A stretch of 64,000 nucleotides of DNA from Streptomyces sp. NBC_01275 (GTDB lineage: Bacteria > Actinomycetota > Actinomycetes > Streptomycetales > Streptomycetaceae): the NCBI RefSeq assembly GCF_026340655.1, contig NZ_JAPEOZ010000001.1, positions 5,022,001 through 5,086,000 of the forward strand. Reading direction: 5' to 3'. This document shows, piece after piece, positions 10,964-51,650 of this stretch (the first letter of the stretch is position 1; each line of letters begins with the position of its first letter). The notes below the pieces were generated by a model. The model had not been told where the DNA came from and made no database searches. It saw nothing but the letters and a program-made list of their open reading frames with translations. Both the position numbers and the translations under genes were made by a program.

Positions 10964-11359
10964 TCAGCCGGGCTCGTCGGTGTGCGCACGCCGGGCCTGG
11001 GAACGGCTGCTGTCCAACCAGGGCGAGGGGACCGACGTTCCGTCGGCGGCGTCGGCGTCGGCAGCGCGGCCGGTGTCCACCGTCAGGTGGAGCAGGGTGC
11101 CCCCGCCGTTCGCGCCCGTGGGATAACTGCGGGGTTCGTCGCAGTGGAACACCTGGCGCAGGACGAGCGCGACCTGCTGGGCGACCTCGGGGTCAGCCGC
11201 GATGACGCGCACCTCGGCGAGCCCGTCGCGCAGGGGCGGGACTTCCCAGCTCTCGGGAACGGTCCCGGGGACGGTTTCAGGGACGGTCGCGGGAACGGTC
11301 GCGGGAACAGTCTCAGGGGTGCCGTCGACGTCCCGGGGGCCGCTTGACCTCGTACGCAT
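10964..11359 (-). CDS. Hypothetical protein with Thr-Val-Pro repeats
   Basis: A protein of about 131 residues that I do not recognise. The N-terminal third contains five TVP[A/E/G] repeats encoded by a 12-base tandem DNA repeat (about 11255-11320). A conserved-looking core follows, [23 protein letters not shown], which reads as strand-helix. Then come a Gly-rich turn, the strand [10 protein letters not shown] and an Asp/Ala-rich tail. The ATG at 11359 is my choice; a GTG at 11368 is nine bases upstream in frame. It is divergent from the next gene, with about 220 bases between them. Confidence 0.6.
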
Positions 11360-11581
11360 GGACGCCACCGCTCTCTGCTGCCGCCTGCCCCCGACACGCC
11401 CACCGTACTCTCGCGCGGTCCCGGCCGGACGGGTGCGAGCGAACGGGCAGGGGCCCTACGGGAGGTGGGAGTACCGTGAAGGAGTCGAGGGTTCTTCGCG
11501 CGCCCGCTTCCACGCGGCGCCGTTCTCGGCGTACGACGACGCCGGGCCGGTCCCGTCCTGGCCTGGGGCAGGGTGCGCCTC

Positions 11582-12391: not shown

Positions 12392-12470
12392 CAGGGCCTC
12401 CGGGAAGGGCCCTGCGGGGACGGGTCTCCGGGAACGGGCCACCGGGCGCGTTCCTTTACTCTGCTCCTGC

Positions 12471-13670
12471 ATGGAGATCGAAACCCTCATCGCGCAACTG
12501 GCAGACCCCGCCGGGCAGCTGAAAGCCAGTGAACTACAGCCGCTGACGGACGAGTTGAAGCGCATGGGTCCCCCGGCCTTCGACGCGGTCGTGGCGGCCT
12601 GGCGGCGGGAGGAGTTCACGGCCTGGCAGCTGGGCCGGTTCCTGGACGGTTTCGACGAGCGGTCGGCGCACCAGTACGCGGCCGCCGCGGCCGACCCCGA
12701 CCGGTCGCTGGCCGCCGGCGGCTTCGCCGGTCTCCTCCGGCTGCGGGTGGAGTCCGACGCCGGACTCCGGGCCCTGGTGGGAGCCTTCACGCGCCGGGAC
12801 GGCGTCCCCTCCGGGGCCGCGGACTACGCCCGGCTGCTCGCCGACGCCTTCGGACCCCGGCTGCGCCGTCTGCGCCGCGACCCCGCCGAGTCCCCGAAGA
12901 CGCGGCGGGCGGCACTCGCGGCGCTGGCGGCGGGCGGCGGCGCCGACGCCCTCGACCCGCGCGACCGGGCGACGATCGAGCGGCTGATCCGGGTGAAGAT
13001 CCCGCACGAGATCCCGGAGCTTCCGGCGCCGATCCTCAGCGCCTGGTGGCTGGCCGTGCCCGGAGCGTCGTACGAGGGACTGTTCGAGGCGTTGGGGCTG
13101 CACGACCGGCGGCCCATCACGGTCCGGGCCGGCGTCGAGGCGACGGAGGGCAGCCGTGCCCTGCTCGAGCTGACCGGGTCCGACGGCGCCCGTCGCACGG
13201 TGGGACGGGTCTTCGTCACCCCGGAACTGGACGGCTGGCGGCTCGTCTACGGTCCGCTCCGTCTGCTGCTCGGCGAACCGTGGGACCCCTGGATGGAGTC
13301 GGTCGAGCGGCTCAGCGCCCACTGCGGTCAGGCCCAGTTCTTCTTCGTGGACGACCACGGCGGCTCGGACCTGTGGGTGGTGGCCGAGAAGGGCCGGGTG
13401 ATCCGTCGGTACACCGCCGAGGACGACCCCGAATGGGTGGGAGACCCGCTGCCCTGGGAGACCCTCGCGACCGAAGACCGCTACTACGACCCCGAGTTCG
13501 ACGACTGGCCGGCCAACGCGGGCACGGACGGCGCCGAGACCGCCTGCGCCCACCTCTCCGTCGACCCGGGCGAGGTCGGAGCCGACACCCGGATACGCGG
13601 CCACGGCTGGCTGGCGCTCACCGAACCGGACGTGGGGCACGGGGCGTTTCCTGGCACGCTTCCTCTCTGA
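12471..13670 (+). CDS. Conserved hypothetical protein with HEAT-like helical N-terminus
   Basis: A 399-residue protein of unknown function. Residues 1-165 are predominantly amphipathic helices of HEAT-repeat style (DELKRMGPPAFDAVVAAW; RRAALAALAAGGGADAL). Residues 230-360 look beta-rich and aromatic, with WDPWMESVERLSAHCGQAQF, a WVVAEKGRVIRRY strand and DDPEWVGDPLPWE, recalling domains of Streptomyces proteins of unknown role. There is no signal peptide or membrane segment. No ribosome-binding site is obvious before the ATG at 12471, so the start is moderately sure. It stands alone between the GNAT-like gene and the TetR gene. Confidence 0.7.
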   Translation: MEIETLIAQLADPAGQLKASELQPLTDELKRMGPPAFDAVVAAWRREEFTAWQLGRFLDGFDERSAHQYAAAAADPDRSLAAGGFAGLLRLRVESDAGLRALVGAFTRRDGVPSGAADYARLLADAFGPRLRRLRRDPAESPKTRRAALAALAAGGGADALDPRDRATIERLIRVKIPHEIPELPAPILSAWWLAVPGASYEGLFEALGLHDRRPITVRAGVEATEGSRALLELTGSDGARRTVGRVFVTPELDGWRLVYGPLRLLLGEPWDPWMESVERLSAHCGQAQFFFVDDHGGSDLWVVAEKGRVIRRYTAEDDPEWVGDPLPWETLATEDRYYDPEFDDWPANAGTDGAETACAHLSVDPGEVGADTRIRGHGWLALTEPDVGHGAFPGTLPL

Positions 13671-18401: not shown

Positions 18402-19751
18402 ATGAGCAGCAACCTGGAGCGCTACACCTACCGCTTCGAGCACTACGCGGAGCGGTGGCCCCTGGTCGTGGACGTGGTGGTGGTCCTCGCGCTGATGGGC
18501 TGCGCGACCCTCGGCAGCTCGCTCACCATGCCCGGCGCCGACCCGCCGGACCAGGACGTGACCGCCGTCGTCCTCATGGGCGTGTCCTGTCTCGCCCTGC
18601 TGAAGTACCGCAGCCACCCGCGCATCGCCGTCGCCGTGACCGCCGTCTGCACGGCCATCGCGATCGTGGTCGGGTACCTGCTCACCCCTCTGCTCCTGGC
18701 GCCCGTCATGGCGTCCCTCTACTGGCTGGCCAGCGTCGCCGACCGCAGGACCACCCGCGTCTACGGCATCACCACCATGGCGGCCCTCACGGTCGCGGCG
18801 GCGTTCTCCGACTCGATGGACGACGTCTCCCTGCTGCTCAGGACCATCGGCCCGTTCTTCTGGCTGCTGCTGCCCCTGGCCGCCGGCAACATGACACGGC
18901 TGCGGCGCGCCTATCTGACGTCGGTGCAGGCCCGCGCCGAGCACGCCGAGCGCACCCGCGAGGAGGAGGCACGGCTGCGCGTCACCGAGGAGCGCATGCG
19001 CATCGCCCGCGAGCTGCACGACGTCGTCGCCCACCACCTCGCCCTGGCCAACGCCCAGGCCGGCACCGCCGCGCACCTCGCGCTCACCAGTCCGCAGCAG
19101 TCGAAGAAGATCCTCACCGACCTGACCGGCACCACGTCCTCCGCGCTGCGCGAGCTGAAGGCCACGCTGGGGCTGCTGCGCCAGAACGACGACCCGGCCT
19201 CCGCCCCGCTGGAACCGGCCCCCGGCCTCACCCGCCTGCCCGAACTGGTCTCGTCGTACGCGTCCGCGGGACTCACCGTCACGGTGACCACGCAGGGCGA
19301 GCCGCGGCCGCTCTCTCCGGGGGTGGATCTGACCGCGTTCCGGATCGTGCAGGAGGCGCTCACCAACGTCGCCAAGCACGCGGCGGCGGAGACCGCGCAG
19401 GTACGGCTGGAGTACTCCGGGCTGCGGCTGCTGATCACGGTGAGCGACGACGGGCCGGCCACGGCCGCGGTCACCGCTTCCGACACCGCCGCCGTGCCGG
19501 GCCGGGGCTTCGGCGTCATGGGCATGCAGGAACGCGCCCGCTCCATCGGCGGCGAACTGTGCGCGGGCCCCCGCCCGGAAGGCGGCTTCGAGGTCACCAC
19601 GGCCCTGCCGTTGCAGCCGACGCCGGCGGGGACGGTCGTGGACACCACGGAAACAACCGCAGCAACCGCAGAACCCGCAGCAACCGCAGCAACCGCAGAA
19701 CCCGCAGCAACCGATGTGACCGCAGTAGTGACTGAAGGAGAAACCCCATGA
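18402..19751 (+). CDS. Membrane sensor histidine kinase, NarL-family type
   Basis: A sensor kinase of 449 residues. The N-terminal half has five or six membrane helices (for example LVVDVVVVLALMGCATLG) and no large extracellular sensor, typical of DesK-like Streptomyces kinases. The HisKA_3 box is ARELHDVVAHHLALA, with His near residue 205. The HATPase domain carries QEALTNVAKHA, SDDGPA and GFGVMGMQERA. The last 50 residues are a low-complexity Thr/Ala/Pro/Glu tail encoded by a repeated ACCGCAGCA-like sequence. The ATG at 18402 follows CGGAGA. It overlaps the response-regulator start by four bases (ATGA), so the pair is translationally coupled. It may control the MMPL exporter upstream. Confidence 0.92.
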   Translation: MSSNLERYTYRFEHYAERWPLVVDVVVVLALMGCATLGSSLTMPGADPPDQDVTAVVLMGVSCLALLKYRSHPRIAVAVTAVCTAIAIVVGYLLTPLLLAPVMASLYWLASVADRRTTRVYGITTMAALTVAAAFSDSMDDVSLLLRTIGPFFWLLLPLAAGNMTRLRRAYLTSVQARAEHAERTREEEARLRVTEERMRIARELHDVVAHHLALANAQAGTAAHLALTSPQQSKKILTDLTGTTSSALRELKATLGLLRQNDDPASAPLEPAPGLTRLPELVSSYASAGLTVTVTTQGEPRPLSPGVDLTAFRIVQEALTNVAKHAAAETAQVRLEYSGLRLLITVSDDGPATAAVTASDTAAVPGRGFGVMGMQERARSIGGELCAGPRPEGGFEVTTALPLQPTPAGTVVDTTETTAATAEPAATAATAEPAATDVTAVVTEGETP

Positions 19752-20428
19752 GCATCAGGGTGCTGCTCGCCGACGACCAGGCCCTGTTGCGGGCGACCTT
19801 CCGGATCCTGATCGACTCCTGCGACGACATGGAGGTGGTCGGCGAGGCGTCCGACGGCGCGGAGGCGGTGCAGCTGACCGGCGTCCACCGTCCCGACATC
19901 GTTCTCATGGACATCCGGATGCCGGGCACGGACGGCCTCGCCGCCACCTCCGCCATCTGCGCGGACCCGGACCTGTCGGCGACCCGGGTCCTCATCCTGA
20001 CCACCTTCGAGACCGAGGACTACGTCGCCCAGGCGCTGCGGGCCGGCGCCAGCGGCTTCCTCGGCAAGGACGTCACCGCCGACACCCTGCTGGCCGGACT
20101 GCGCACCGTCTCCGGCGGCGAGGCCCTCCTCTCGCCCGGCGCCACCCGCACCCTCATCACCCGCTTCCTCACGTCCCCCGCCCCCGGCGCCCAGCTGGCG
20201 CCCCCGGAACGCCTGGCCGACCTCACCGTCCGCGAACGCGAGGTCATGGCCCTGGCCGCGGAAGGCAAGTCCAACACCGAGATCGCCGAGGACCTCACCC
20301 TCAGCCCCCTGACCGTACGCACCCACATCCACCGCGCCATGACCAAACTCGGCGCCCGCGACCGCGCCCAACTGGTCGTCATCGCCTACCAGACGGGATT
20401 GGTGCGGGCGGCTCGACCGAGGTCCTGA
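19748..20428 (+). CDS. NarL/FixJ-family response regulator
   Basis: A 226-residue DNA-binding response regulator and the partner of the preceding kinase. The receiver domain has the acidic pair DD at residues 9-10, phosphoacceptor Asp55 in VLMDIRMPGTDG, the Thr in LILTTFE and the Lys in FLGKDV. A LuxR-type HTH lies at residues 155-215 (LTVREREVMALAAEGKSN, then LSPLTVRTHIHRAM). It is the last gene before the unusual biosynthetic region, about 108 bases upstream of its first gene, which has its own promoter-like sequence. Confidence 0.94.
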   Translation: MSIRVLLADDQALLRATFRILIDSCDDMEVVGEASDGAEAVQLTGVHRPDIVLMDIRMPGTDGLAATSAICADPDLSATRVLILTTFETEDYVAQALRAGASGFLGKDVTADTLLAGLRTVSGGEALLSPGATRTLITRFLTSPAPGAQLAPPERLADLTVREREVMALAAEGKSNTEIAEDLTLSPLTVRTHIHRAMTKLGARDRAQLVVIAYQTGLVRAARPRS

Positions 20429-20436
20429 GAAATCTG

Positions 20437-20466
20437 TTGCCTGAAAATGATCTAGGTGGCTAGATT
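20437..20466 (+). promoter_or_regulatory. Promoter with overlapping palindromic operator, aminotransferase operon
   Basis: TTGCCT (20437-20442) and TAGATT (20461-20466), 18 bases apart, resemble a sigma-70-type promoter. The spacer and -10 region contain the palindrome ATCTAG-gtgg-CTAGAT (20450-20465), which would place a bound repressor on the -10 element. A small CCCCA/TGGGG hairpin follows near 20470-20486. The gene start is 71 bases downstream of the -10. Confidence 0.6.
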
Positions 20467-20536
20467 GTGCCCCAACTCACCTGGGGAGTAAGGAGGTTGC
20501 TTCAGCTCGTCTTTTCGATTTCAAGGGGGAACATCT

Positions 20537-21772
20537 GTGGTTGATGTGTCGCGAATGACGGTTTCGAAAACGTCGGGGATCGGCGAGGACACCATCGAGG
20601 AGGTCGCCCGCTATCTGGGCCGGGGAGGCCCGCTGTCCATCGGTGACGGCTCCGGGATCATCGAACGCCTGGAGCGTCGGCTGGAAGATCTGCTGGGCAT
20701 TCGGAACGTACTCACCTGCAGCTCGGGCACCGCGGCGCTGCACTCCGCCTACCTCGCCCTGGACCTGCCGACAGGCGCGGAAGTGGTCGCCCCTGTCACG
20801 ACGTTCCACGCGTCGGTGACACCGGCGTTGCAGTGCGGTCTGACACCGGTGCTGGTGGACGTCGACCCGGACAACGGGAACATGTCGCCTTCCGCGCTGC
20901 GAGAGGCGATCACCGAGCGGACGCGGTGCGTGGTGGTCACGCACAATCTGGGCCACCCGGTCGAGCTGGACGAGATCGCCGACATCTGCCGTGAACACGG
21001 GCTGCGCCTGATCGAGGACTGCTCGCACGCCTATCTCTCCACCTACCGTGGACGTCCGGTGGGCACCGTGGGGGACATCGCGGTGTGGAGCATGCAGGCA
21101 GCGAAGACGCTGGTCGCCGGAGAAGGGGGCTTCCTCGCCACCGAGGACCGCGCCCTGTTCGAGCGAGCCTGCCTGGCCGGCCACTATCGCGGCCGCTCGG
21201 AGAAGCAGATCGCCGATCCGGCGCTGCGCGCGTTCGCCGACACGGGCATGGGTCTGAAGTACCGGTTGCATCCCTTGGCGGCGGTCATCGCCTGGTCCGA
21301 GGCGGCACATCTGGTGGAGCGCGTCGAAAGGCGGCAGCGGCTGCTGACGCGTCTGAGCTCCAGGCTGGAGAAGACTCCCGGTGTGCGTCCCCCCGTCGTG
21401 CACGACGACGTCACGATGGGCGGCTGGTTCAGCTACCGGCCCACGCTGGTCCCCCGCGGCGACGATCCCCGGGCGGCCTTCGAACGATCCGTGGATGCGC
21501 TGCAGAAGGCTGGAGTGCCCGCGCACCGGCCCTCGATCGGCTCGCTCGACTCGATGCCCCTGTTCACCGGACCCCCTCCGCTGCGGCACGCAACGTCGAC
21601 CTGGCGGCCGAGGCTGTGCGGGCCGTTCGACGGTGCGCGGGCCTATGAGCAGGACCGGCTGTCCGTGACGGTGACCGCGGCGGACGACCTGGACCGGATG
21701 GAAGCGTATGCGGACGCGTTCGCCGACGTCATGAACGGATGGAGCGGATCCGCCGCGGTCGGCGCTCGATGA
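20537..21772 (+). CDS. DegT/DnrJ/EryC1/StrS-family PLP aminotransferase
   Basis: An aminotransferase-fold enzyme of 411 residues, the family used to aminate keto-sugars or keto-cyclitols with PLP and Glu/Gln. The PLP-binding Lys190 lies in WSMQAAKTLVAGEGG, the pyridine-contacting Asp161 in LIEDCSHAY and the phosphate-binding Ser/Gly in CSSGTAALHSA. The GTG start at 20537 is preceded by AAGGGGGA. It is the first of seven plus-strand genes joined by 4- to 8-base overlaps (one of 104 bases). A sugar-like or ribulose-derived keto substrate would fit the phosphoribosyl chemistry of its neighbours. Some family members are dehydratases or sensors, so amination is probable, not certain. Confidence 0.9.
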   Translation: MVDVSRMTVSKTSGIGEDTIEEVARYLGRGGPLSIGDGSGIIERLERRLEDLLGIRNVLTCSSGTAALHSAYLALDLPTGAEVVAPVTTFHASVTPALQCGLTPVLVDVDPDNGNMSPSALREAITERTRCVVVTHNLGHPVELDEIADICREHGLRLIEDCSHAYLSTYRGRPVGTVGDIAVWSMQAAKTLVAGEGGFLATEDRALFERACLAGHYRGRSEKQIADPALRAFADTGMGLKYRLHPLAAVIAWSEAAHLVERVERRQRLLTRLSSRLEKTPGVRPPVVHDDVTMGGWFSYRPTLVPRGDDPRAAFERSVDALQKAGVPAHRPSIGSLDSMPLFTGPPPLRHATSTWRPRLCGPFDGARAYEQDRLSVTVTAADDLDRMEAYADAFADVMNGWSGSAAVGAR

Positions 21773-23160
21773 CGGTGAAGCCCGCCCATGACCGGCTGAC
21801 GCGCGACGAGGGCCGGCGCGTTCTGGACCTGGCCCGGGAGATAGCGCTTGACCAGCGGGCCCTGCGCCAGGACTGGAGTGCGCGCCTGCGTGCCGCGCGC
21901 ACGGTGGCGATCCCCGACGGCGAGGACTTCGAGCCGGGTTCCGGCCTGGCGCCGGGCGGCGGGTTTCGCCTGCGGCCCGCGGACTTGGCGCAGCTGGGAG
22001 ACACCGCGAAAGCTTTCTTCGCCGATGCCGTCACTCGAGACGGATGGACCTACCTGCGTGGCTTTCGGTACTACGCGGCTGACGCGGAGATGTACCTCCC
22101 CGGCCGTGTGCCCTCGGCCGTCCGACGGTGGGGGTTGATACAGAGCGGTTGGCCCCGCTATGCCGAACACGCGGCGAAGCTGGCCGAGGAGGCAGCCGTG
22201 ACGCCGGTGCCCTGGGGACGCTGGCTGGCCTGGCTCGCCTTTCTGGAATCCGTGCTGAACGATCTGTGCGCGGCGGCCTGGAGCGCGGAACATCTGCGTG
22301 ACCGGTCGGCGGCCCCGCGCGTCGACGTCGCTGTGCGGGCCGTCTCCCGCCTGCTGGCCGAGGCCGGCTGGCACTTGTGGAACGAACCGCATCGTGCCCG
22401 GCCCGATACCTGGGCCGAGCGGGCGCACGCCGTCGTGGCCGACCCCGATCTGGCCGCCGCTCTTCGCGGAATCGAAGCGGCGATCGGCACAGAGAGCCCT
22501 CCCTCATGGGCCGTACGCGCGATCAGGGAGGGCGACTGTCTCTGGCAGATCGCCGCAGCGTACGAACTGCGCTGGCCCGCCCTCCGGGCGGCACATCCGG
22601 GTCAGCCCGTGCTGCTGCTGAGCGAAGCCTTCGGAGCCATGTCCGTCGGACCGCTGTGGGCGGCCCTGATGTCCGAAGAAGACGTGAAGAGCGTGGAGTC
22701 GGCCGCCTGCCGGCTGTCCGTGCACGAGGAGGAGATGGGACGGGTGTCGGGTTCGGGGTGGCGCACCGAACGGGTGGAGGCCATGGGCCGGGTGGTGGTG
22801 CACCTGGACGACTCGGTGTTCACCGGCCGTACCCACGCCGCGCTGCGCGGCGTGCTCGACGGCGGGCCGACAGCGGTCTACCTGGCATCTCTGACGTTCG
22901 ATGTAGGCACTCCCTTCAACCATCCGGAAGAAATCACGGCTTTGGGCCGGAACGTGAACGAGCACTTGGACCTGATCGAAGAACTGGTGCGTGCCCCCGG
23001 CGGGAACCTGCCCTCGGCCATGAGTCTGTGGGCGCGACGAAAGCGGCACGGCGTTCACGACCCGTCGGAACAAGGAGCGTTCGCCCGGGTTCTGGGCGGG
23101 TCGGACCGATTGCTGGCCCTGCTGTGGGATCGCTACGCCATGGAGATACGCCATGCCTGA
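21769..23160 (+). CDS. Unknown protein with C-terminal phosphoribosyltransferase-like motif
   Basis: A 463-residue protein I cannot assign to a named family. The N-terminal 300 residues are mostly helical with conserved-looking Trp/Tyr positions (GWTYLRGFRYYAADAEMYLP; WGRWLAWLAFLESVLNDL). Near residue 342 is VVVHLDDSVFTGRTHAAL, which resembles the PRPP-binding loop of type I phosphoribosyltransferases (hydrophobic strand, acidic pair, then T/S-G-x-T). A HLDLIEELVRAPGG helix follows. The start overlaps the aminotransferase stop as ATGA, and the stop overlaps the next start by eight bases. With two more phosphoribosyltransferases nearby, a PRPP-related step is plausible. Confidence 0.75.
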   Translation: MTVKPAHDRLTRDEGRRVLDLAREIALDQRALRQDWSARLRAARTVAIPDGEDFEPGSGLAPGGGFRLRPADLAQLGDTAKAFFADAVTRDGWTYLRGFRYYAADAEMYLPGRVPSAVRRWGLIQSGWPRYAEHAAKLAEEAAVTPVPWGRWLAWLAFLESVLNDLCAAAWSAEHLRDRSAAPRVDVAVRAVSRLLAEAGWHLWNEPHRARPDTWAERAHAVVADPDLAAALRGIEAAIGTESPPSWAVRAIREGDCLWQIAAAYELRWPALRAAHPGQPVLLLSEAFGAMSVGPLWAALMSEEDVKSVESAACRLSVHEEEMGRVSGSGWRTERVEAMGRVVVHLDDSVFTGRTHAALRGVLDGGPTAVYLASLTFDVGTPFNHPEEITALGRNVNEHLDLIEELVRAPGGNLPSAMSLWARRKRHGVHDPSEQGAFARVLGGSDRLLALLWDRYAMEIRHA

Positions 23161-23860
23161 ACTGAGCGAAGAGGTCAAGGAACGTCTCGTCTTCCGCGCC
23201 GCCCGCGATCGCGCGTCGCGCATGGTGTCCTGGGCCGCCGTGCAACGTGACGTCGATGCCCTGGCCGAGGCCATTCACTCGGCGGGCGTGGTGCCGACCG
23301 CGCTGATCGGCATCTTTCAGGGCGGATGGCTCGTCGCCCAGTGTCTGGCCGACCACTTCCCGGGCGCCCCGGTTCTGGGCTGCCTGGCGAGACAGGGAGA
23401 CGACGAGGCGCGAGTGGTGCTCTTCGGGGCGACCGACGGCCTGCACACCGAGGTGGTGCCCGAGCCCGGCAGCACCGCCCTCCTCGTCGACGAGGTGGTC
23501 GACTCCGGTCGTACCGCGGGTTTCTATCTGGAGCGTCTGCGCGACGACTTCGGGGTCCACGCGCATCTGGTGTGTCTGGCCGCCGACACCGCCGCCCGGC
23601 CCGCTCCGGACTTCGCGGCACAGCGGATGGACTCGCTTCCTGCGTTGGTCCTGCCCTGGCGGGTGCTGCGGGACTTCGAGCAGACGGCGGCGTGTCTGCT
23701 GCGTGCCGAACCCATGACCACTTCTCAGATTGACGAGAGACTACGTGAATTCGGACATGACATCGCCCCTCGGGTCCTCGACGCCCGACTGCGTTCCCTC
23801 GCGGCCCGGGGACTGGTCAGGCTCGGCGACGACGGAACCTGGAGCCGGGGCGGCGCTTGA
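23153..23860 (+). CDS. Phosphoribosyltransferase (type I fold) with C-terminal winged-helix-like tail
   Basis: A 235-residue protein resembling xanthine/hypoxanthine-type phosphoribosyltransferases. The pyrophosphate loop is in LIGIFQGGWLVAQCLADHF and the PRPP-binding motif TALLVDEVVDSGRTAGF starts near residue 109. The last 55 residues (MTTSQIDERLREFGHDI, then RLRSLAARGLVRLGDDGTW) read as a winged-helix DNA- or protein-binding domain. This is unusual for a catalytic PRTase and reminiscent of PurR/PyrR-like regulators built on PRTase folds. It could therefore be enzyme, regulator or both. The last 104 bases overlap the start of the fusion gene in another frame. Confidence 0.85.
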   Translation: MPELSEEVKERLVFRAARDRASRMVSWAAVQRDVDALAEAIHSAGVVPTALIGIFQGGWLVAQCLADHFPGAPVLGCLARQGDDEARVVLFGATDGLHTEVVPEPGSTALLVDEVVDSGRTAGFYLERLRDDFGVHAHLVCLAADTAARPAPDFAAQRMDSLPALVLPWRVLRDFEQTAACLLRAEPMTTSQIDERLREFGHDIAPRVLDARLRSLAARGLVRLGDDGTWSRGGA

Positions 23861-26783
23861 GGAAGTCCGCGCCTTCTACGACAGCGATCCGCAACGCGAA
23901 TGGCGGCGAACCCAGGACGGCGCTTATCACCGCTTGGAGTTCGAGGTCATCCACCGCGACATCCTGCCCGGCGTACTGGAGCCGGGCAGCCGGATTCTGG
24001 ACGTGGGGAGCGGCCCGGGGCGTCATGCCGTGGCGCTGGCCGCGCGGGGGCACCGCCTCGCGCTCGCCGATCTCTCGGCCGCGTGTCTCGCGGAGGCCCG
24101 TCGCCGTTTCGACGAGGCAGGGCTCACCGACCGGCTGCTGGACGTACAGCACACCAGCGCCACGGACCTGTCCGTCCAGCCCGGCGCATTCGACGCGGTT
24201 CTGCTCTTCGGCCCGCTCTACCACCTTGTGGACGACGCGGCGGCCGCCGAGTGCATGCGGCGCGCGGTGGCAGCGCTCCGTCCGGGAGGGCACCTGTTCG
24301 CGACGTTTCTGACCAGGACCTCGATCGTCCGGGATCTGCTCAAGCGGGGCCGGTTCGCGGAGATCCAGGCGCTGATCGACAACGGCTATCTCACTCAAGG
24401 ACGTTACCGGCCTCTGTCGGAGCAGTCCCGTGCCGACTACATGCCGCCGGTGAGGACACATGGCTTGGCGGAGGCGGAGCGCCTGGTGCGCGACGCCGGC
24501 CTGGAGACCGTGGACGTGCACTCCCTCGAAGGCGCCGCGGGATGGATGCGTCCGTACATCGACGAGGTGGGCGCTGACGACGCGTCGTTCCGCGAGCTCA
24601 GCGCGGTGGTGCGGGCCACCGCGCGGCTGCCGGAGCTGATCGAGGCGGGGGATCATTTCGTGATCACCGCACGTCGCCCCGGTGCGGGGACCGGCGACGG
24701 AGCGGCCCGCGTGGCCAGGCCGGCGGCGGAGGGGCGACACGGCGTACGCACCTCTTCCAGCGGTGCGGTGACGGGACGTCACCGCACCCTGGTGGCGGCT
24801 GAGGAAGGCCGAATCTGTTTCGCGCCCTCCGTCGTGACGCACGCGGGTCGCCGGCTGATCGCCATGGCGGTCGGAGCGGCCGACGACCGGGTGTTCACAC
24901 CGATCCAGCACACGGATCGCGCGCCGGAACCCTGGTACACGGGGGGACGCAACAGAATCCGTGTGATGCCTCTGTCGGATCAGGGCTCGGCCTGTCAGGA
25001 CGAGGGCGTCGACATACCCGTGCCGCCGGCCGTCGAGGACATGACCGGCGCGAGTCTGGTGAGCGTCGGCGACGGCCTTCATCTCTGGTTCGGCGCCCGT
25101 GCCGCCGGAGGACCGTGGCGGATCCATCACACCGTGAGCGCCGACGGCGGTCGTACGTGGTCTCCTCCCGAACTCGCTCTGGAGCAGGGGCCCTCGGGGT
25201 CCGGCGACTGCGAGCACGTCCTGCTGCCGGCCGTGGTCCACAGGAGGGACGGCTGGTGGATGTGGTACGCGGGGCGCGACGGTGCTCACCGGCGCATTCA
25301 TCTGGCCCGCTCCGCCGACGGGACGAACTGGCAGCGGCACGGTGTGGCGATCGAACTGGGCACGCCCGGAAGCGCCGACGCCTACGCGACCGACTGCCCG
25401 GCTGTCGTATCCCTGCCGAACGGCGGCTTTCTGGCGCTCTACGGGGCGGGCTCCTCCCGGTCGCTCGCCGGAGCGGTCTCGGAGGACGGCCTCACGTGGC
25501 GCAAGATCGGCCCGGTTCTGCACCGCGGCGAGCATGGCGCCCCGGACTCCCGGTACGCCTTCTACCCGGCGCTGCTGCACGACGGCACAGGCTCCGCCAC
25601 TCTCCTGTACGCGGGTGAGGACCACAGGAGCCGGTGGACGATTCTCAGCGCGGGCGTGGTCGACCTCGCTCTTCTCGCCGCACGCCCGGAGCCGTTGTCA
25701 CTCTCCGGGACAGCCGCCGACAGCGTCGCGTTCATTCGGGAGGACGTGGACGAATCGTTCCTGGACGTACCTGAGGACTGCCACGGCCCGGCCCCCGTCT
25801 ACCGGTCCCGTGACGGGCTGATCCGCCAGTTGCGTCCCAGTTCGACTCCCGTCTTCGCCGTGCGCTCCCCGAGCGGTGAACGCGACAGCGTGGTCGTCAA
25901 GCTCGGCCGCGGCCGAGCCTCGGTGGAGCGGGAGTTCGACGGGCTGCAGGGACTGACGCGGCATCTGCCGCTCCCCACGGCGGCCCTGCACTATCAGGGC
26001 GAGCAGGCCGCTCTGGTCATGGAACACCTGGAAGGGGCACCGCTCTCGGCCCTCGCCGCCACGGACTCCGACCGTTTCGACGGCGTCCTGAGGGCGGTGG
26101 TCACCGGCCTCGCCGACACCGCGTCCGCGACGCTGACACCGGCGGCCGACGTCGAAGGCGGCGCCGACCACACGCTTCAGTCCCCCGAGGTGGTGAGCGA
26201 GTGGCTGGAGGGCATCGGCGACGCGCTGGCGCCCTGGCGGAACCACCGGCTCAGCCTCAACGGCACGCTGCTGGACGAAACGCTGGGCGACACCGTTCGG
26301 AAGTCCCGGGCCCTGATCCGTCGCGATCCCGAGTGGCTCGTCCACAGCAGCGGCGATGTGCACCTGGGCAACGTGCACGTCGCTCCCGACGGCGAGCGCT
26401 GGTGGCTGCTGGACCTGGAGTTCGCCGGACTGCACGATCTCGACCGCACGGTCGCCGGACTCCTCGGCTCATGTCTCAAGCACAGCGGTCTCATCACCGA
26501 CGCACGAGCGGAAGTCGGGCCCGGCGAGTTGTCCCTGACCGTCGGCATCAGAGGCGATCTGGGGCATCGACTGCTGAACACGCCGTACTTGCTCGATCTC
26601 TTCGCGGAGCTGCCGCTGGACTCGGGGCGAGTGTTCGCGTTTCTGCTGCCCGACCTGTACTTCCGGCTGACCGCGACAGCCGACGGAGATGCCGTGCCGG
26701 CCTTCGGGCTGGCCGCCCTCGCCCTGGGCGCTCGGATGACACGCCAAGGACAAGGACGAGGACGAGGACGAGGACAGCGATGA
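23757..26783 (+). CDS. Three-domain fusion: SAM methyltransferase / beta-propeller / APH-like kinase
   Basis: A 1008-residue cytosolic fusion with three domains. Residues 25-305 are a class I SAM methyltransferase (motif I ILDVGSGPGRHAVALA near 80, then FGPLYHLVD). Residues 345-640 form a five-bladed-propeller-like GH43/GH32-type region with repeated strand motifs (LWFGARAAGGPWRIHHT, WMWYAGRDGAHRRIHLARS, LLYAGEDHRSRW). Residues 690-990 are an aminoglycoside-phosphotransferase-like kinase with Lys in VVVKLG, the Brenner loop HSSGDVHLGNV near 864 and the metal Asp in LLDLEFAG. The ATG at 23757 is my choice; another is at 23730. No later start exists before the methyltransferase. The 3' end is a GACGAG hexamer repeat (26753-26777). 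Confidence 0.88.
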   Translation: MTSPLGSSTPDCVPSRPGDWSGSATTEPGAGAALEEVRAFYDSDPQREWRRTQDGAYHRLEFEVIHRDILPGVLEPGSRILDVGSGPGRHAVALAARGHRLALADLSAACLAEARRRFDEAGLTDRLLDVQHTSATDLSVQPGAFDAVLLFGPLYHLVDDAAAAECMRRAVAALRPGGHLFATFLTRTSIVRDLLKRGRFAEIQALIDNGYLTQGRYRPLSEQSRADYMPPVRTHGLAEAERLVRDAGLETVDVHSLEGAAGWMRPYIDEVGADDASFRELSAVVRATARLPELIEAGDHFVITARRPGAGTGDGAARVARPAAEGRHGVRTSSSGAVTGRHRTLVAAEEGRICFAPSVVTHAGRRLIAMAVGAADDRVFTPIQHTDRAPEPWYTGGRNRIRVMPLSDQGSACQDEGVDIPVPPAVEDMTGASLVSVGDGLHLWFGARAAGGPWRIHHTVSADGGRTWSPPELALEQGPSGSGDCEHVLLPAVVHRRDGWWMWYAGRDGAHRRIHLARSADGTNWQRHGVAIELGTPGSADAYATDCPAVVSLPNGGFLALYGAGSSRSLAGAVSEDGLTWRKIGPVLHRGEHGAPDSRYAFYPALLHDGTGSATLLYAGEDHRSRWTILSAGVVDLALLAARPEPLSLSGTAADSVAFIREDVDESFLDVPEDCHGPAPVYRSRDGLIRQLRPSSTPVFAVRSPSGERDSVVVKLGRGRASVEREFDGLQGLTRHLPLPTAALHYQGEQAALVMEHLEGAPLSALAATDSDRFDGVLRAVVTGLADTASATLTPAADVEGGADHTLQSPEVVSEWLEGIGDALAPWRNHRLSLNGTLLDETLGDTVRKSRALIRRDPEWLVHSSGDVHLGNVHVAPDGERWWLLDLEFAGLHDLDRTVAGLLGSCLKHSGLITDARAEVGPGELSLTVGIRGDLGHRLLNTPYLLDLFAELPLDSGRVFAFLLPDLYFRLTATADGDAVPAFGLAALALGARMTRQGQGRGRGRGQR

Positions 26784-27577
26784 CAGTCGCGCCTGCCGGG
26801 ATCGAGGCGGTGCTGTTCGATGTGGACGACACCCTCGTGGACACACGCGGTGTGTGGGAGCGGGCCCTCGACACCCTGTGCCGGAACATCGTGGCGTCGG
26901 TGCCCGGATCCGACGCAGAGGCGTTGGCGGACGCCTACCGCGTGACCTCCGACGCCCTGTGGGGCGACTACGCCCGTGCGCTCGCTCCGCTCGGTTCCGT
27001 CCCCGCCATCCGTCGCCATGTGTGGCAACGAACCCTGCGAGCCCGCGGGGTCGAGGTCTCGTCCGACCGGCTGGGGTGGATCGTGGCGGAGTTCGATGCC
27101 CTGCAGCGCGCTGAGATCCGGCCCGACCCGCAGCTCCCAGGGCTGCTGAGCCTCCTTGCCGAGCGATACCGGTTGGCGGTGTGCTCCAACGGCGAGGGCG
27201 AACAGACGCGCATGAAACTGGAGCGGGCCGGTGTGCTCCAGTACTTCGAGTCGGTCGTGTGCGGCATCGACGAGCAGGTGCGCAAACCGGATCCGGAGCT
27301 CTTCGCCCGCTGCTGCCGCTCCCTGGGCGTCCAGGCGGAACGTTGCCTCTACATCGGTGACGACTGGAGCAACGACGTCGACGCGGCCCGCCGGGCCGGA
27401 CTTCGCCCGCTGTGGATCCCCACCGATCCTGCCGCACTCGTGCCTGACGGCCAGCGGCCGCCGCCGCGCTACCGCACGGTCCAGGCCTGTCTGCGCGACC
27501 TCCTGCGAGCCACCGACGAACGGTCCACGCCCGACCGCCTCCGTGCGGATCGACTCCTTCAGAAAGAGATCCTGTGA
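26780..27577 (+). CDS. HAD-superfamily phosphatase
   Basis: A 265-residue haloacid-dehalogenase-type hydrolase, probably a sugar- or nucleotide-phosphate phosphatase. Motif I is FDVDDTLVDT with the nucleophile Asp14, motif II is VCSNGEG near residue 134, the motif III Lys is in EQVRKPDPELF and motif IV is YIGDDWSNDVDAA near 191. The cap domain between motifs I and II is helical (C1 type, beta-phosphoglucomutase-like). The start overlaps the fusion-gene stop as ATGA, and its stop overlaps the next start as GTGA. It would fit a late dephosphorylation step in a phosphoribosylated pathway. Confidence 0.92.
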   Translation: MTVAPAGIEAVLFDVDDTLVDTRGVWERALDTLCRNIVASVPGSDAEALADAYRVTSDALWGDYARALAPLGSVPAIRRHVWQRTLRARGVEVSSDRLGWIVAEFDALQRAEIRPDPQLPGLLSLLAERYRLAVCSNGEGEQTRMKLERAGVLQYFESVVCGIDEQVRKPDPELFARCCRSLGVQAERCLYIGDDWSNDVDAARRAGLRPLWIPTDPAALVPDGQRPPPRYRTVQACLRDLLRATDERSTPDRLRADRLLQKEIL

Positions 27578-28863
27578 ACCGATGGATCGCGTCGTCGCTC
27601 GCGGCGGCCGAACCCCGTGTGCCGGATTCCGAACCGGTCCCGTCACACGATGTGCTGGGCGTGTTCCGCATACCGGCGGCGGAACGATCCGCCGCGACCC
27701 GCATGGGCATTCCGCAGGCGCTCCTCGACCAGTTCCCGGCGACGACCGAAGGAACCGCGCTGAGCCGGTCCTCCGGCTACTACGCACCCCGGATCGGCCT
27801 GCGCGCCGCACCGGAGCTGTACGACGCCCTGCGTGTCATCGACCGGCGGTCCGACCGACCCGCCCCCGCGCTTCGCCGTGCCCTCGTGGAGAACCTGCAC
27901 AACGTCTACGCCGCCGTCGCCTACACCGTGTGGGAGCACCTGACCGACCAGGTGCGCACCTCCGGCGTGGACGAGAAGGTGCTGGACTCCCTCCTGGAAG
28001 CCGGCACGCGCCTGAGCGCCGACCTTGCCGGGACAGCGCCTCGCGGCTGGACCGAGGAGCCGCTGCCCGACCTCGCGCCCTTCTCGTCCCTCGCCTCCCT
28101 GCGGGTCTTCCGTGAACTGGACAGCCAGGCCAAGCTCCACGACGAGCTCGACTTCCTGCTCACCCATGTCATAGACGAGTACCCGGAGATCACCTCCGTG
28201 GTCGTTCCGCTGTACGGCTCGTTCTCCCTGGGGCTCGCGGCCCGCGCGATACTGCCGGTCGCGCGACCCCACCGGAAGCTTTCGGTCCACCTCATCCGCC
28301 TCGGTTTCCACGACCTGTCCACGGTGGACTACAAGAGGACCGACGGGACCATCCGCTCGGAACTCGTCGGTCCGCCGGAGCAGCGTGAGCGCCTCGCGGC
28401 CGACGTCCATGGCGCCCATGTGCTCGTCGTCGACGACAACGTGGGCTACGGAACGACGTTGCGGGCGGCCAGGACCCTGATCGGTCAGCTCGGCGGCAGG
28501 GCCCTCACGCGGAGCGTGGAAACCGCGTGGCACCTGTACAGCCGCGACGGCCGGCATGACGTCGCCGACGCCGCCGACCTGCCCAGTCTGCGTCCCAACC
28601 TGCACCACCGGATCCAGGACCGGCTCATCGGCCATCTGCTTCGAGGAGACGCCGACGCCTATGCCGACGACTCCGCCCACGCAGTGCGCTCCACTCTCCA
28701 TCAGCAGATGAGGACTTCGTACGACATGGCGCTGGGCCTGGGCACGTTGGCGCCACGGCAGCTGCGGGCGATGCGCGCGGAACTCGCACACGCCGTACTG
28801 AACTGGCGCGAGCCCCCTGTTCCTCCCGCGCCCGTCACCTTGTCCGGCAGGAGAGCCGCATGA
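27574..28863 (+). CDS. Large phosphoribosyltransferase-domain protein
   Basis: A 429-residue protein in which residues 195-360 contain a type I phosphoribosyltransferase fold. The PRPP motif VLVVDDNVGYGTTLRAA starts near residue 282, preceded by TSVVVPLYGSFSLGLAARAI, which fits the pyrophosphate loop. The remainder is helical and unfamiliar. The GTG start overlaps the HAD stop (GTGA) and the stop overlaps the HisA-like start (ATGA). Together with the proteins at 21769 and 23153 this gives three PRPP-motif proteins in one operon. The substrate cannot be read from sequence; neighbouring HisA/HisF/HisH homologues suggest a phosphoribosylated amine. Confidence 0.85.
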   Translation: MNRWIASSLAAAEPRVPDSEPVPSHDVLGVFRIPAAERSAATRMGIPQALLDQFPATTEGTALSRSSGYYAPRIGLRAAPELYDALRVIDRRSDRPAPALRRALVENLHNVYAAVAYTVWEHLTDQVRTSGVDEKVLDSLLEAGTRLSADLAGTAPRGWTEEPLPDLAPFSSLASLRVFRELDSQAKLHDELDFLLTHVIDEYPEITSVVVPLYGSFSLGLAARAILPVARPHRKLSVHLIRLGFHDLSTVDYKRTDGTIRSELVGPPEQRERLAADVHGAHVLVVDDNVGYGTTLRAARTLIGQLGGRALTRSVETAWHLYSRDGRHDVADAADLPSLRPNLHHRIQDRLIGHLLRGDADAYADDSAHAVRSTLHQQMRTSYDMALGLGTLAPRQLRAMRAELAHAVLNWREPPVPPAPVTLSGRRAA

Positions 28864-29576
28864 TCGGGCTGCTTCCCGACGACCGTCCGACAGGGCTTTG
28901 GCGGGTCAACGTGGACATACGCCGAGGCGATGTGACCGCACGTCCCGGTGAACCGTCGGACGATCTCCTCGGCCTGCTCCTGGAACAGGGCGTCCCCCTG
29001 GCCCTCATCGACCTGGACCGGAGCATCGACGCGGTCCCCGAGACCACGCTGCTGGAACGGGCGGCCAGGCGGTACCCCGGCCGACTCTGGCTCGGGGGAC
29101 GGCTCACCGCGTCGGATCCGCTGGCGCGCCGCCTTCTCGACGAAGGTGCGCAAGGCCTGTTGATGGGGTCTTCCGGGCTGTTCCGCGAGGGTCGCGTCAA
29201 TCGCACCGAACTCGAAGCCCTGGCCCGTTTCCCCGCGCCCGAGCGCCTCATGGTGAGCATCGACGCCATCGACGACCGGGTGGCCATCAACGGGTTCACC
29301 ACACCCACCACCCTGTCCGTGGCCCATGCCCTGGACGCCGTGCTCCAGGCCACCGGTGGGCGCTGCCCCGTGCTCTACACGGACACCGCTGCCGCCTTGC
29401 GGCGCCGGCCGCCCACCTGGCGCCACGTCGAGGCCATCGCCGCGTCCAACCCGGGGTGCCAGTTCTGGTACGCGGGCGGCCTGACGCAGTGGGCGGAACT
29501 GCGTCAGGCCTGGAGCCTGGGCCTGGGAGCCGTGGTGGGACGTGCGTATCTGACGCCGCCGCTCGGCCTGCCGTGA
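28860..29576 (+). CDS. HisA-like (beta/alpha)8 barrel, divergent paralogue
   Basis: A 238-residue barrel that follows the HisA pattern strand by strand: VNVDIRRGDV, LIDLDRSID, WLGGRLTASDPLARRLL, GLLMGSSGLF, MVSIDAIDDRVAINGF, VLYTDTAA, FWYAGGLTQW and GAVVGRAYL. HisA isomerises ProFAR to PRFAR in histidine synthesis. The catalytic Asp in strand 1, the Asp in VSIDA and the Thr in YTD are kept. The R/K-DGT loop after strand 6 is replaced by AALRRRPPTW and the second Gly-Gly of GGGI is altered, so the substrate probably differs. It is the last gene of the plus-strand operon and converges on HisF with a 16-base gap. Confidence 0.8.
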   Translation: MIGLLPDDRPTGLWRVNVDIRRGDVTARPGEPSDDLLGLLLEQGVPLALIDLDRSIDAVPETTLLERAARRYPGRLWLGGRLTASDPLARRLLDEGAQGLLMGSSGLFREGRVNRTELEALARFPAPERLMVSIDAIDDRVAINGFTTPTTLSVAHALDAVLQATGGRCPVLYTDTAAALRRRPPTWRHVEAIAASNPGCQFWYAGGLTQWAELRQAWSLGLGAVVGRAYLTPPLGLP

Positions 29577-29592
29577 CGCTGTGGCGGGAGCC

Positions 29593-30387
29593 CTACGGGC
29601 AGGGCCTGACCGTCAGGTCGTGAGCCTTGGTCAGATCCGCCTTGACCTCGCGCACGGACACCGTGCGCTCCATGCGGGGGGAGTAGAGCAGCGAACTGAT
29701 GATCGCCGCCGAGGCGGACGCCTCCTTGAAGGCCGCCGCCACGTGCCCCGAGGAGCCGGCTCCGCCCGACGCGATCACCGGCAGGTTCACCGCTCGCGCG
29801 ATGGTGCCCGTGATGTTCAGCTCGTAGCCCTCGTGCGTGCCGTCCTGGTCGATGGAGTTGACCACGATCTCGCCGGCGCCGAGTTCCTCGCCGCGCTTCG
29901 CCCACTGCACCGCGTCCAGCCCCGTCGCCACGCGGGCGCCGTCGATGAACACCTCGTAGCCACTGGGGATCTCCGGTGTCACGGGAACCCGCTTGACCTG
30001 CATGGACTGAACCATGCACTGGCGGCCGAACTCCTTGGACCCCTGGGCGATGATCTCCGGATCGCGTACGGCCATGGAGTCGAGGGAGATCTTCTCGGCG
30101 CCGGCGTCGAGCACGGCGTGCATGTCCTCGAGGGAGCGGATGCCGCCACCGACCGTGAGGGGCACGAAGACCTTCCGGGCCACCGCCTCGATGGTGCGCA
30201 GATCGGCCTGCCTACGGTGCGCGCTGGCCAGAATGTCGTAGAAGATCACCTCGTCGACGCCGTCGGCGTACACCGATTCGGCGATCGTGGCGGCGTCTCC
30301 CACGTCGATGTTGTCCTGGAACCTCCGGGCCTTGGTGACCCGGCCTTCGACGATGTCGAAGCAGGCGATCAGCCTCGCAGTCAGCAC
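29593..30387 (-). CDS. hisF: HisF paralogue (imidazole glycerol phosphate synthase cyclase-like)
   Basis: A 264-residue cyclase-subunit homologue. Asp11 (ACFDIVEGRV) is present, as are the ammonia-gate residues Arg5, Glu (VDEVIF), Lys (GAEKIS) and Glu (GAGEIV), and the phosphate loops VGGGIR and IASGGAG. The second catalytic Asp, in the canonical AIDAKR (Asp130 in the Thermotoga enzyme), is replaced: the aligned segment reads QSMQVKR, so Asp is Gln. It probably receives ammonia from the HisH partner but catalyses a different or modified reaction. The GTG start at 30387 has AGGAGG upstream and overlaps the HisH stop by seven bases. No hisB/hisD/hisC genes are nearby. Confidence 0.9.
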   Translation of the reverse strand: MLTARLIACFDIVEGRVTKARRFQDNIDVGDAATIAESVYADGVDEVIFYDILASAHRRQADLRTIEAVARKVFVPLTVGGGIRSLEDMHAVLDAGAEKISLDSMAVRDPEIIAQGSKEFGRQCMVQSMQVKRVPVTPEIPSGYEVFIDGARVATGLDAVQWAKRGEELGAGEIVVNSIDQDGTHEGYELNITGTIARAVNLPVIASGGAGSSGHVAAAFKEASASAAIISSLLYSPRMERTVSVREVKADLTKAHDLTVRPCP

Positions 30388-31022
30388 AGTTCCTCCTGCG
30401 GAAGCTTCGCGAAACGCTCGAGCAGGTCCAGGCCGAGCGGACCGGACTTCTCCGTGTGGAACTGAGTGGCCATGATGTTCCCCTTGGCCACGGCGGAGAC
30501 GAAGTCCACTCCGTATTCGGTCGTCGCGGCGATGTCCGAGGCGTCCGCCGGCTCCGCGTAATACGAGTTGACGAAGTAGAAGTGCCCGTCCTGGGGAAGT
30601 TCGGCCACAAAGGCGTGGTCAGACGCGCGGCGCACCTGGTTCCATCCCATTTGAGGCACACGTACAGTCTCGGGGTCAAATGGGCGTACCGTTCCCGGAA
30701 GCCAGCCCAGGCATTTTGCGTCCTGCTCCGCGCTCGAATCGAAAAGGACCTGCAGGCCCACGCAGATGCCCAGGAAGGGCATGTCTCCCTCGACTACCTT
30801 CGGGTGCAACGCGGAAGGCCATCCGGCGGCGTTCAGGTAGTCCATCGTGGTTCCTGCCGAGCCCACTCCGGGCAGGATGACGCGGTCGATCTCGGTGAGT
30901 TCGTCGGGTGTCTTCATCAAACGATTCGGCACACCGAGGAAATTGAGCGCGTACTGCACGCTCTGCGAGTTCCCAGTCTGATAGTCGATCACGCCGACAA
31001 CCGGCCGGTCGCGATAACTCAT
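30381..31022 (-). CDS. hisH: HisH paralogue (glutamine amidotransferase subunit)
   Basis: A 213-residue class I glutamine amidotransferase that releases ammonia for its HisF partner. The nucleophile Cys is in LGICVGLQVLF (near residue 88), and the catalytic His-Glu pair is in QFHTEKSG near residue 193. The oxyanion-strand motif ILPGVGSAGTTM is intact. The YVNS-type segment (FYFVNSYYAEP) matches HisH, not PurQ or GuaA. The ATG at 31022 has GAGGCG upstream. It is followed by the HisF paralogue with an overlap and forms a two-gene operon that converges on the seven-gene operon. In several bacteria, extra HisH/HisF pairs serve sugar amidination or nucleoside pathways. Confidence 0.92.
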   Translation of the reverse strand: MSYRDRPVVGVIDYQTGNSQSVQYALNFLGVPNRLMKTPDELTEIDRVILPGVGSAGTTMDYLNAAGWPSALHPKVVEGDMPFLGICVGLQVLFDSSAEQDAKCLGWLPGTVRPFDPETVRVPQMGWNQVRRASDHAFVAELPQDGHFYFVNSYYAEPADASDIAATTEYGVDFVSAVAKGNIMATQFHTEKSGPLGLDLLERFAKLPQEELC

Positions 31023-31330
31023 GAGCGCCTCAATCTATGGTCGATACAGGAACGGCCAGGTTGGGATGATCTGCGGCATCGCCGCACCAGTCCGGCGGCG
31101 ACAGGGCCATGGTAGCCGTTCCGACCTTGGAGGGACGGGCCGTCTCACGGGCGACGGGAAGGCCCTGGATCGCCTCCACATCGACATGCGGGGGACCCGG
31201 TCACGGTGCCTCTGTGCGGGCCATTCCGCGGACCCTGTGGATGCCGTGAAGCGGGCCGGAGGAGAGGCCCGGTCCTCATCCTCGGTCAACTCCCTGTAGT
31301 AGTAACGGACTTGTGTGAATCGGCACTAGC
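31023..31330. other. Divergent intergenic region, HisH / APH-like gene
   Basis: A 308-base non-coding stretch between divergent genes. It presumably holds the promoters of both. On the minus strand TAGATT lies about 15 bases before the HisH start and equals the -10 hexamer of the aminotransferase operon, but I cannot find a matching -35. On the plus strand, TTGTGT near 31310 is a weak -35 candidate for the kinase gene. No RNA gene or repeat is evident. Confidence 0.4.
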
Positions 31331-32338
31331 ATGCGCCGGATGAGGAGCCTGATCAAGCGCGTACTGAGCCCGGCCGCCGTAGAGAAGCGACTGCTGGAGT
31401 CGACGGGAGTCGGCTGGCGAGTGGAGCGTGAGCTGACCGACGGCTGGTTCAACGCCGCCTATCTTGTCGTCGCGAGCGACGGGAGCTCGGCGGTCGTGAA
31501 GATATCCCCGGCCGCTGACGCTTCCGTTCTGCGGTACGAGCGCGGAATTCTGGACACCGAGGCGATGTTCTACCGCCGGGTAACAGAATGGGGTGGTGTT
31601 CCGACCCCCGAGTTGCTGCATGTGGAGCCCGACTTTCTGCTGGTATCGACGCTGGAAGGGGACCCGTGGAGCAGAGTGGCGGAGCGGCTTCCGGATGGCG
31701 CGCGAGGAATGCTTCTACGTGAAATCGGAGGCGTTGTCGCCAGGCTGCACGCCCTGACGTCGGACGAGGGCCGGTTCGGGTGTCCCGCTCCCCAGGCCGG
31801 CTTGTCCTCGAGGGATTGGCGCACGGCCTTCACCGCCATGGTGGAGGCGATCCTGGAGGACGCCGAGAGATGGGAGTCCCCGCTCGGCGTCACCCGAGCG
31901 GAAGTGCTGGGTTTCCTGGAGGCGGGAGCGAACGCACTCGACGAGGTCAGACGCCCCAGCCTTGTGCACTTCGATCTGTGGCCGGGAAACATATTCATAG
32001 CCACTGGATCCCCATCCGGCGGGGATGCGCCACGACTCGTCGGCATCATCGACCATGAAAGGGCCTTCTGGGGGGATCCGGTGGCAGAGCTGGTATCGCT
32101 GGAGATATGCGGAGACATCGGTCCGGGCAGCGATTTCCTTTCCGGATATATCGACGGCGGTGGCAGGCTGGAGTTCACGCCTGCCACCCTCGGTCGGTTG
32201 GCCCTGTATCGCCTGTATTTCTGTCTCATCCTGGTCGTCGAATGCGGGCCGCGTGGATACACCGCGGAACATCTGGCGTGGTGTCGCGCCAAGCTCGATG
32301 CGGCCGTCGGAGAGCTGCGCGAGCTCACTCGTCTCTGA
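31331..32338 (+). CDS. Aminoglycoside-phosphotransferase-like kinase
   Basis: A 335-residue APH/choline-kinase-family protein that would transfer phosphate from ATP to a small alcohol or amino alcohol. The ATP-binding Lys is in AVVKISPAAD. The catalytic loop is LVHFDLWPGNIFI and the metal-binding motif GIIDHERAFWGDP, both complete. Lower third-position GC in parts of the gene than in neighbouring housekeeping genes hints at transfer. The ATG at 31331 may be replaced by an ATG nine bases later. It could confer self-resistance or tailor the product of the preceding cluster. It is similar in kind to, but not a copy of, the kinase domain in the fusion protein. Confidence 0.85.
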   Translation: MRRMRSLIKRVLSPAAVEKRLLESTGVGWRVERELTDGWFNAAYLVVASDGSSAVVKISPAADASVLRYERGILDTEAMFYRRVTEWGGVPTPELLHVEPDFLLVSTLEGDPWSRVAERLPDGARGMLLREIGGVVARLHALTSDEGRFGCPAPQAGLSSRDWRTAFTAMVEAILEDAERWESPLGVTRAEVLGFLEAGANALDEVRRPSLVHFDLWPGNIFIATGSPSGGDAPRLVGIIDHERAFWGDPVAELVSLEICGDIGPGSDFLSGYIDGGGRLEFTPATLGRLALYRLYFCLILVVECGPRGYTAEHLAWCRAKLDAAVGELRELTRL

Positions 32339-51649: not shown

Positions 51650-51650
51650 C

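Follow-up and report, generated by a model that had tools for sequence, protein, structure and literature searches.

What could a hisH-hisF pair be making when it is encoded beside phosphoribosyltransferases (PRTases), an aminotransferase, a methyltransferase and a phosphatase? The locus that raises this question lies in a 64,000-nucleotide stretch of Streptomyces sp. NBC_01275 (contig NZ_JAPEOZ010000001.1, positions 5,022,001 to 5,086,000), here called the window. It comprises nine genes in ~10.5 kb, seven of them on the plus strand and facing a convergent, minus-strand hisH-hisF pair (Table 1). The reading we prefer, to which we give about an even chance, is that the locus is a mobile, stand-alone biosynthetic cassette working off histidine and phosphoribosyl pyrophosphate (PRPP) chemistry, in which a phosphoribosyl amine would be isomerised and an imidazole ring closed.

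In Thermotoga maritima HisF, D11 acts as the general acid and D130 as the general base according to PMC11350729, and PMC5919458 names both residues as essential. The window HisF retains D11 and the phosphate-site glycines, and its residue 130 is Gln. The combination D11, D103, S104 and Q130 is present in 133/133 sequences of this HisF type, a set made up of the window protein, the best 120 of 6197 homologues, eight copies from genomes and four additional ones from cassettes. Canonical-type HisF proteins, taken from the NBC_01275 genome itself and from the taxonomic class of a genome designated G777, carry D130 in each of 13 rows and N103 in all but one of them, the exception (L057) being a partial 31% alignment in which position 103 reads as Gly. 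Because of this distribution, the alignments describe the change as a paired exchange, N103 to Asp with D130 to Gln, and D103 has probably taken over from position 130 as the catalytic base; T104 of the canonical enzyme is Ser in the D103/Q130 type. With the canonical HisH/HisF synthase the cassette pair shares the pairing of a glutaminase with a (beta-alpha)8 cyclase, as well as D11 and the phosphate-site glycines, whereas D130, N103 and T104 are replaced. D11, D103, Q130 and a neighbouring hisH, which together define the clade, were all found. The window protein scores 265 bits with the HisF model TIGR00735, under the cut-off of 294.55, and HisH retains the GICVG and FHTEKSG motifs when aligned with a solved HisH.

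Outside the cassette, the same HisF type seems to stand in for the canonical enzyme. The class to which G777 belongs was sampled with 60 genomes. Eight of these (L025 and L041-L047) encode a D103/Q130 HisF, at 458-473 bits, and none of the eight shows a second HisF match at E ≤ 1e-30; of the remaining 52, 33 have a match of HisF type scoring no more than 266 bits and 19 lack any (Fisher p = 0.0009). These eight non-cassette proteins are 40-44% identical to the canonical HisF of NBC_01275. In all eight carriers hisH adjoins the D103/Q130 hisF, and its product is 52-55% identical to the cassette HisH versus 33-39% to the canonical HisH of NBC_01275. The G777 assembly is a single 2.46-Mb contig in which only HisA and the D103/Q130 HisF exceed the PF00977 cut-off, with one match below it at 19.8 bits. 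A class I/II aminotransferase gene (read as hisC), the imidazole glycerol phosphate dehydratase gene hisB and hisA lie there in a direct run confirmed by Pfam, with no hisH between hisB and hisA, and hisI and hisG are also encoded. On the simplest reading, the D103/Q130 HisHF would be the imidazole glycerol phosphate synthase of G777, and for the cassette HisHF we favour a genuine synthase of this kind whose active site has been altered. We rejected the idea that the missing D130 marks a dead or freely neofunctionalised paralogue, since in 8 of the 60 genomes no other HisF match accompanies this type.

The HisA-like protein was compared with PriA of the same genome in 25 aligned rows. The beta-1 aspartate is present in 23/23 readable rows, two rows starting later, and the beta-5 aspartate in 25/25; of the glycines tested, those on strands 3, 7 and 8 are kept in every row, and that on strand 4 is kept in 18 and replaced by Ser in 7. 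The Trp of the GW motif is Phe in all 25 rows, and the window protein scores 40.4 bits with the HisA model TIGR00007, under a cut-off of 228.95. This pattern fits an isomerase that may have kept its chemistry and taken a different substrate.

The nine genes appear to form a rare, self-contained set in soil actinobacteria. Protein searches in a database of 5.8 billion sequences, which scored only the ~8000 candidates sharing most words, returned a small HisA-like family of 20 proteins, the query among them; two are short fragments. When a single genome per species was scanned, six loci emerged. A preliminary description of the window, made from its letters, had proposed a search for the same neighbourhood in other actinobacteria, and that neighbourhood is conserved: L006 (S. 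lonarensis), L008 (NRRL WC-3626), L009 (S. humidus) and L010 (S. zinciresistens) each carry the full set of nine genes, with order and orientation unchanged. The nine are also all present on the 510-kb linear plasmid NZ_CP109471.1 of Streptomyces sp. NBC_01462, at 44-81% identity to the window by tblastn, so that the full order is found in five Streptomyces records besides the window, one of them plasmid-borne. L005, a metagenome-assembled genome of the Streptosporangiaceae, has the seven plus-strand genes. The gene set and arrangement of that description (StrS-type aminotransferase, three PRTase-like proteins, fusion protein, HAD phosphatase, HisA-like protein and hisH-hisF) are confirmed, each gene lying where it had been placed. 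The kinase gene that it had appended to the set is not conserved: tblastn found no match to it in any of the 7 other loci, the plasmid stretch included, and we rejected it as a pathway gene.

The flanks of the cassette mostly differ between copies, as judged from gene calls by a simple script that missed some genes found by tblastn. Two neighbours recur: a divergent TPR regulator, assigned to the NsdA family from its plasmid member, lies beside the StrS gene in 5/5 main Streptomyces copies (L006, L008, L009, L010 and the plasmid), and a GNAT acetyltransferase gene does so in 4/4 of those whose stretch reached far enough. Both neighbours are in keeping with a secondary-metabolite cluster. In these main copies the regulator and the GNAT gene, both divergent from StrS, are located at L015 (27510-29443) and in L016, L019 and L021. 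PRT_a, used as a cassette marker, was found in 4 of 392 Streptomyces genomes, NBC_01275 included, and D103/Q130-type hisF in the same four; across 394 genomes of the class, both were found in NBC_01275 only, two of three PRT_a matches being partial and marginal (E ~2e-4) and therefore discounted. A distant PRT_a group, 36-40% identical, suggests the same linkage, with five of nine members matched to a D103/Q130 hisF by equally long contigs (P0064-P0068 with P0153, P0141, P0159, P0170 and P0151).

The genes are tightly packed, the plus-strand overlaps from StrS through the HisA-like gene being, when recomputed, 4, 8, 104, 4, 4 and 4 bp; hisH and hisF overlap by 7 bp, and 16 bp separate the HisA-like gene from hisF. 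The Lys of the SMQxxK motif in the aminotransferase is unchanged in 6/6 aligned cassettes. PRT_a combines a PRTase fold with the PRPP-loop motif DDxxxTG, in which the two Asp are invariant in 34/34 sequences and the Thr and Gly are conserved in at least 90%. The propeller of the fusion protein has weak profile similarity to glycoside hydrolase propellers (best E = 9e-5), and its kinase part (25728-26783) resembles APH and choline kinase folds; in L005 the fusion is present as two genes, the methyltransferase being separate. The HAD-type phosphatase is conserved in 5/5 aligned cassettes, and its gene starts at 26780, the longest open frame, from 26201, being discarded.

Table 1. Features of the cassette and its immediate neighbours (window positions)
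Feature	Position	Strand	Evidence
Upstream neighbours encoding a sensor kinase and a response regulator, not conserved along with the cassette	18402..20428	+	
StrS/DegT-type pyridoxal phosphate-dependent aminotransferase, 411 aa	20537..21772	+	Pfam PF01041 E=4.9e-66
PRT_a, type I PRTase core plus large helical part	21769..23160	+	ATG at 21769 (4-bp overlap); open frame from 21739
PRT_b, PRTase like hypoxanthine PRTase (HPRT) and xanthine PRTase	23153..23860	+	PF00156 E=4.3e-7; PDB PRTase profile match E=5.8e-8
Fusion of S-adenosylmethionine (SAM) methyltransferase, beta-propeller and APH-like kinase domain	23757..26783	+	Methyltransf_25 E=9.4e-17
HAD-type phosphatase, 265 aa	26780..27577	+	PF00702 E=5e-26
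PRT_c, divergent PRTase-like protein, motif VVDDNVGYGTT	27574..28863	+	PF00156 22.2 bits; PDB adenine PRTase profile match E=0.006
HisA-like barrel	28860..29576	+	PF00977 E=8.9e-8
HisF, D103/Q130 type	29593..30387	-	D11 at 30355-30357, D103 at 30079-30081, Q130 at 29998-30000
HisH glutaminase subunit	30381..31022	-	TIGR01855 201 bits, cut-off 105.4
APH/fructosamine-kinase-like gene, neighbour outside the conserved unit	31331..32338	+	PF01636 E=4.5e-21

Histidine synthesis in the host appears to be served elsewhere. The NBC_01275 genome (10.4 Mb, 9 contigs) gave four PF00977 matches, two in the window and two from hisF and priA at C1:2298821-2300621, and a canonical hisH, its relation to HisH confirmed by tblastn, adjoins the latter pair. 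This separate hisH/priA/hisF set bears out the view of the preliminary description that the window locus is not the histidine operon. Its proposal of a HisA-type isomerisation gains from the retention of both catalytic aspartates, and ring closure by HisHF becomes likelier because the same HisF type is apparently used in histidine synthesis elsewhere; taken as a whole, that interpretation is partly supported, and to it are now added a HisF without D130 and a HisA-like protein with changed loops.

The reactions, their order and the product are what we infer from the observed gene content, gene order, conservation, linkage and residue changes. The PRTase-like enzymes would transfer a phosphoribosyl group, or a similar sugar phosphate, from PRPP onto an amine-bearing acceptor, and the HisA-like barrel would convert the phosphoribosyl amine to a phosphoribulosyl amine. 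HisH would release ammonia from glutamine, which HisF would add while closing the imidazole ring, giving a product resembling imidazole glycerol phosphate. The second fragment of the canonical HisF reaction is 5-aminoimidazole-4-carboxamide ribonucleotide (AICAR). The substrate could be phosphoribosylformimino-AICAR phosphate (ProFAR) or its phosphoribulosyl isomer (PRFAR) drawn from the host, or an adduct that the PRTases of the cassette form themselves. The HAD protein may then remove a phosphate, the StrS enzyme introduce an amino group and the methyltransferase methylate the intermediate, and the kinase domain could add a phosphate in a biosynthetic or self-protecting role. The product is probably a small molecule of imidazole- or nucleoside-like character.

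Several observations weigh against this reading. The PriA motif DGT after strand 6 is lost in 25/25 HisA-like rows, the Thr at strand 6 before GW is kept in 21/25 and is Val in 4/25, and loop 1 is ~11 residues shorter in the rows shown; the substrate may therefore not be ProFAR-like. The cassette-type HisF proteins (n = 9) differ from the eight non-cassette ones at 19 sites, among them position 127, which is Gln in 9/9 and Leu in 8/8, so that the cassette reaction or substrate may differ too. The rest of the histidine pathway was checked in G777 alone, and the other seven carriers are drafts. PRT_c has the PRPP-type motif at a PF00156 score short of the cut-off of 26.3 bits. No oxidoreductase that could supply a ketone to the aminotransferase is among the Pfam matches of the cassette proteins, and no transporter kept alongside the nine genes appears in the flank gene calls. 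The NsdA regulator and GNAT gene were found in neither the window nor L005. In L005, ~5.3 kb separate hisA from a hisF that is truncated by the end of the contig, beyond which hisH would fall. The metagenome-assembled contig L007 carries only HisA, HisF, HisH and a part of PRT_c (residues 302-420), and its 8.3 kb of upstream sequence yielded none of the five genes that precede PRT_c; L007 (1-12205) could be a chimera or a decayed copy.

Other assignments would explain parts of the same gene set. WbuY and WbuZ (HisH2/HisF2) probably supply ammonia for amidation in acetamidino sugar synthesis, and WbuZ and AglZ-HisF2, members of the HisF superfamily like the cassette protein, are paired with a HisH-type glutaminase. 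By analogy HisH and HisF could merely deliver ammonia for sugar amidation, with the StrS enzyme making an amino sugar and no imidazole formed. The StrS gene in the operon and the match of the window HisF to the WbuZ model TIGR03572 at 226.6 bits speak for such a role; that score is, however, below both the WbuZ cut-off of 299.7 and the HisF model score, the AglZ score is 188.1 bits against a cut-off of 310, and the Pfam matches of the nine proteins include no WbuX-like partner. Moreover, 8 genomes apparently have this HisF type as their sole HisF, and we consider sugar amidation improbable. That last observation would also suit a spare histidine segment, in which the HisA-like protein and HisHF provide a second route from ProFAR to imidazole glycerol phosphate. 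We regard this as very unlikely, given the canonical set in the genome, the tight linkage to six non-histidine genes, the low HisA score with loss of DGT and the rarity of PRT_a among Streptomyces genomes.

The product might instead be an intracellular signal or a defence metabolite rather than an exported antibiotic, by comparison with Ter-associated PRTase modules, whose proposed product is nucleoside-like. Anantharaman et al. reportedly described in 2012 a Ter-associated PRTase/HAD nucleoside module with ATP-grasp and Ter partners and with more than one PRTase and a HAD protein per operon, as in the cassette. No HisA, HisF or HisH is known from that module, and the nine cassette proteins gave no Pfam match to an ATP-grasp or a Ter protein. 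A nucleotide made by two PRTases has been proposed for the Ter system (PMC5512222). The several PRTases and HAD protein in one operon, the lack of a conserved transporter and the Ku, DNA ligase, dnaE and lexA genes near the plasmid copy would all accord with a signalling or defence role, but the NsdA and GNAT neighbours fit secondary metabolism. A PADLOC scan of eight cassette proteins (the HAD protein left out) and the APH kinase gave no more than two matches, one of the methyltransferase region to mads_2 (5.3e-17) and a weak one of the PRTase region to ShosT (0.004), and on this result we rejected a defence system as such; a signal or defence metabolite seems to us an unlikely product. A viral origin was likewise rejected: 10 IMG/VR loci (L026-L035) encode HisF-like proteins whose best segments are 28-36% identical to the cassette HisF.

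The closest relatives in kind of the proposed imidazole pathway are the adechlorin (2'-amino-dA) and pentostatin clusters, which, like the cassette, are actinobacterial and join homologues of histidine-pathway enzymes and PRPP chemistry to a nucleoside-type product (PMC13055916 and PMC12648386). The former paper reports that these clusters recruit the PriA homologue AdeK together with HisG homologues, so that recruitment of a histidine isomerase into nucleoside clusters is already described; the HisA-like protein of the cassette (P0007) is a far more divergent member of the HisA superfamily than AdeK. Those clusters have their own HisG homologue (AdeC/PenA), a SAICAR synthetase (AdeA) and, for pentostatin, the short-chain dehydrogenase PenB (PMC12648386), whereas the nine cassette proteins have no Pfam match to any of the three at E ≤ 0.001. 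The terms hisF and hisH occur 0 times in the main text of PMC13055916. A literature search judged by title and abstract start, with few subscription papers covered, gave neither a description of a D103/Q130 HisF nor a hisH/hisF pair in a specialised-metabolite cluster.

Several further genes lie in or around the copies. In L008 (10735-11400) and L009 (10735-11520) an additional SAM methyltransferase gene stands between hisA and the convergent hisF; in L005 a minus-strand gene for a prokaryotic E2/ThiF-type protein (11160-12689) lies between the HisA-like gene and hisF; and in L007 a Glycos_transf_3 family gene follows at 11174-12205. Elsewhere in the window, a PBP_like_2 gene and two BPD_transp_1 genes on the minus strand (48549-52532) make up, by family, an ABC importer unrelated to the cassette. 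Membership in a larger nonribosomal peptide synthetase or polyketide synthase cluster was rejected for the part of the window's flanking frames that was scanned, whose matches were MMPL, two-component, alcohol dehydrogenase, SpoIIE/PAS, WS_DGAT-like, Ig-like and ABC-type proteins or none.

A bolder proposal, which we advance tentatively and think unlikely to hold in every part, is that the D103/Q130 protein represents a second natural form of HisF in which the base has moved from Asp130 to Asp103 (N103D with D130Q), that it replaces the canonical enzyme in the histidine synthesis of some bacteria, and that with a re-specialised HisA and three PRTases it has been built into a pathway for a new class of imidazole natural product. 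HisF has long served textbooks as a model of barrel catalysis, of allostery and of ammonia channelling, in which D11 and D130 are treated as an essential pair. With a natural clade that lacks D130 and yet apparently suffices to make histidine, what each of these residues does can be tested directly, and the cassette, by tying the D103/Q130 HisF to a compact operon, offers a tractable target for a product that may derive from histidine-type imidazole chemistry.

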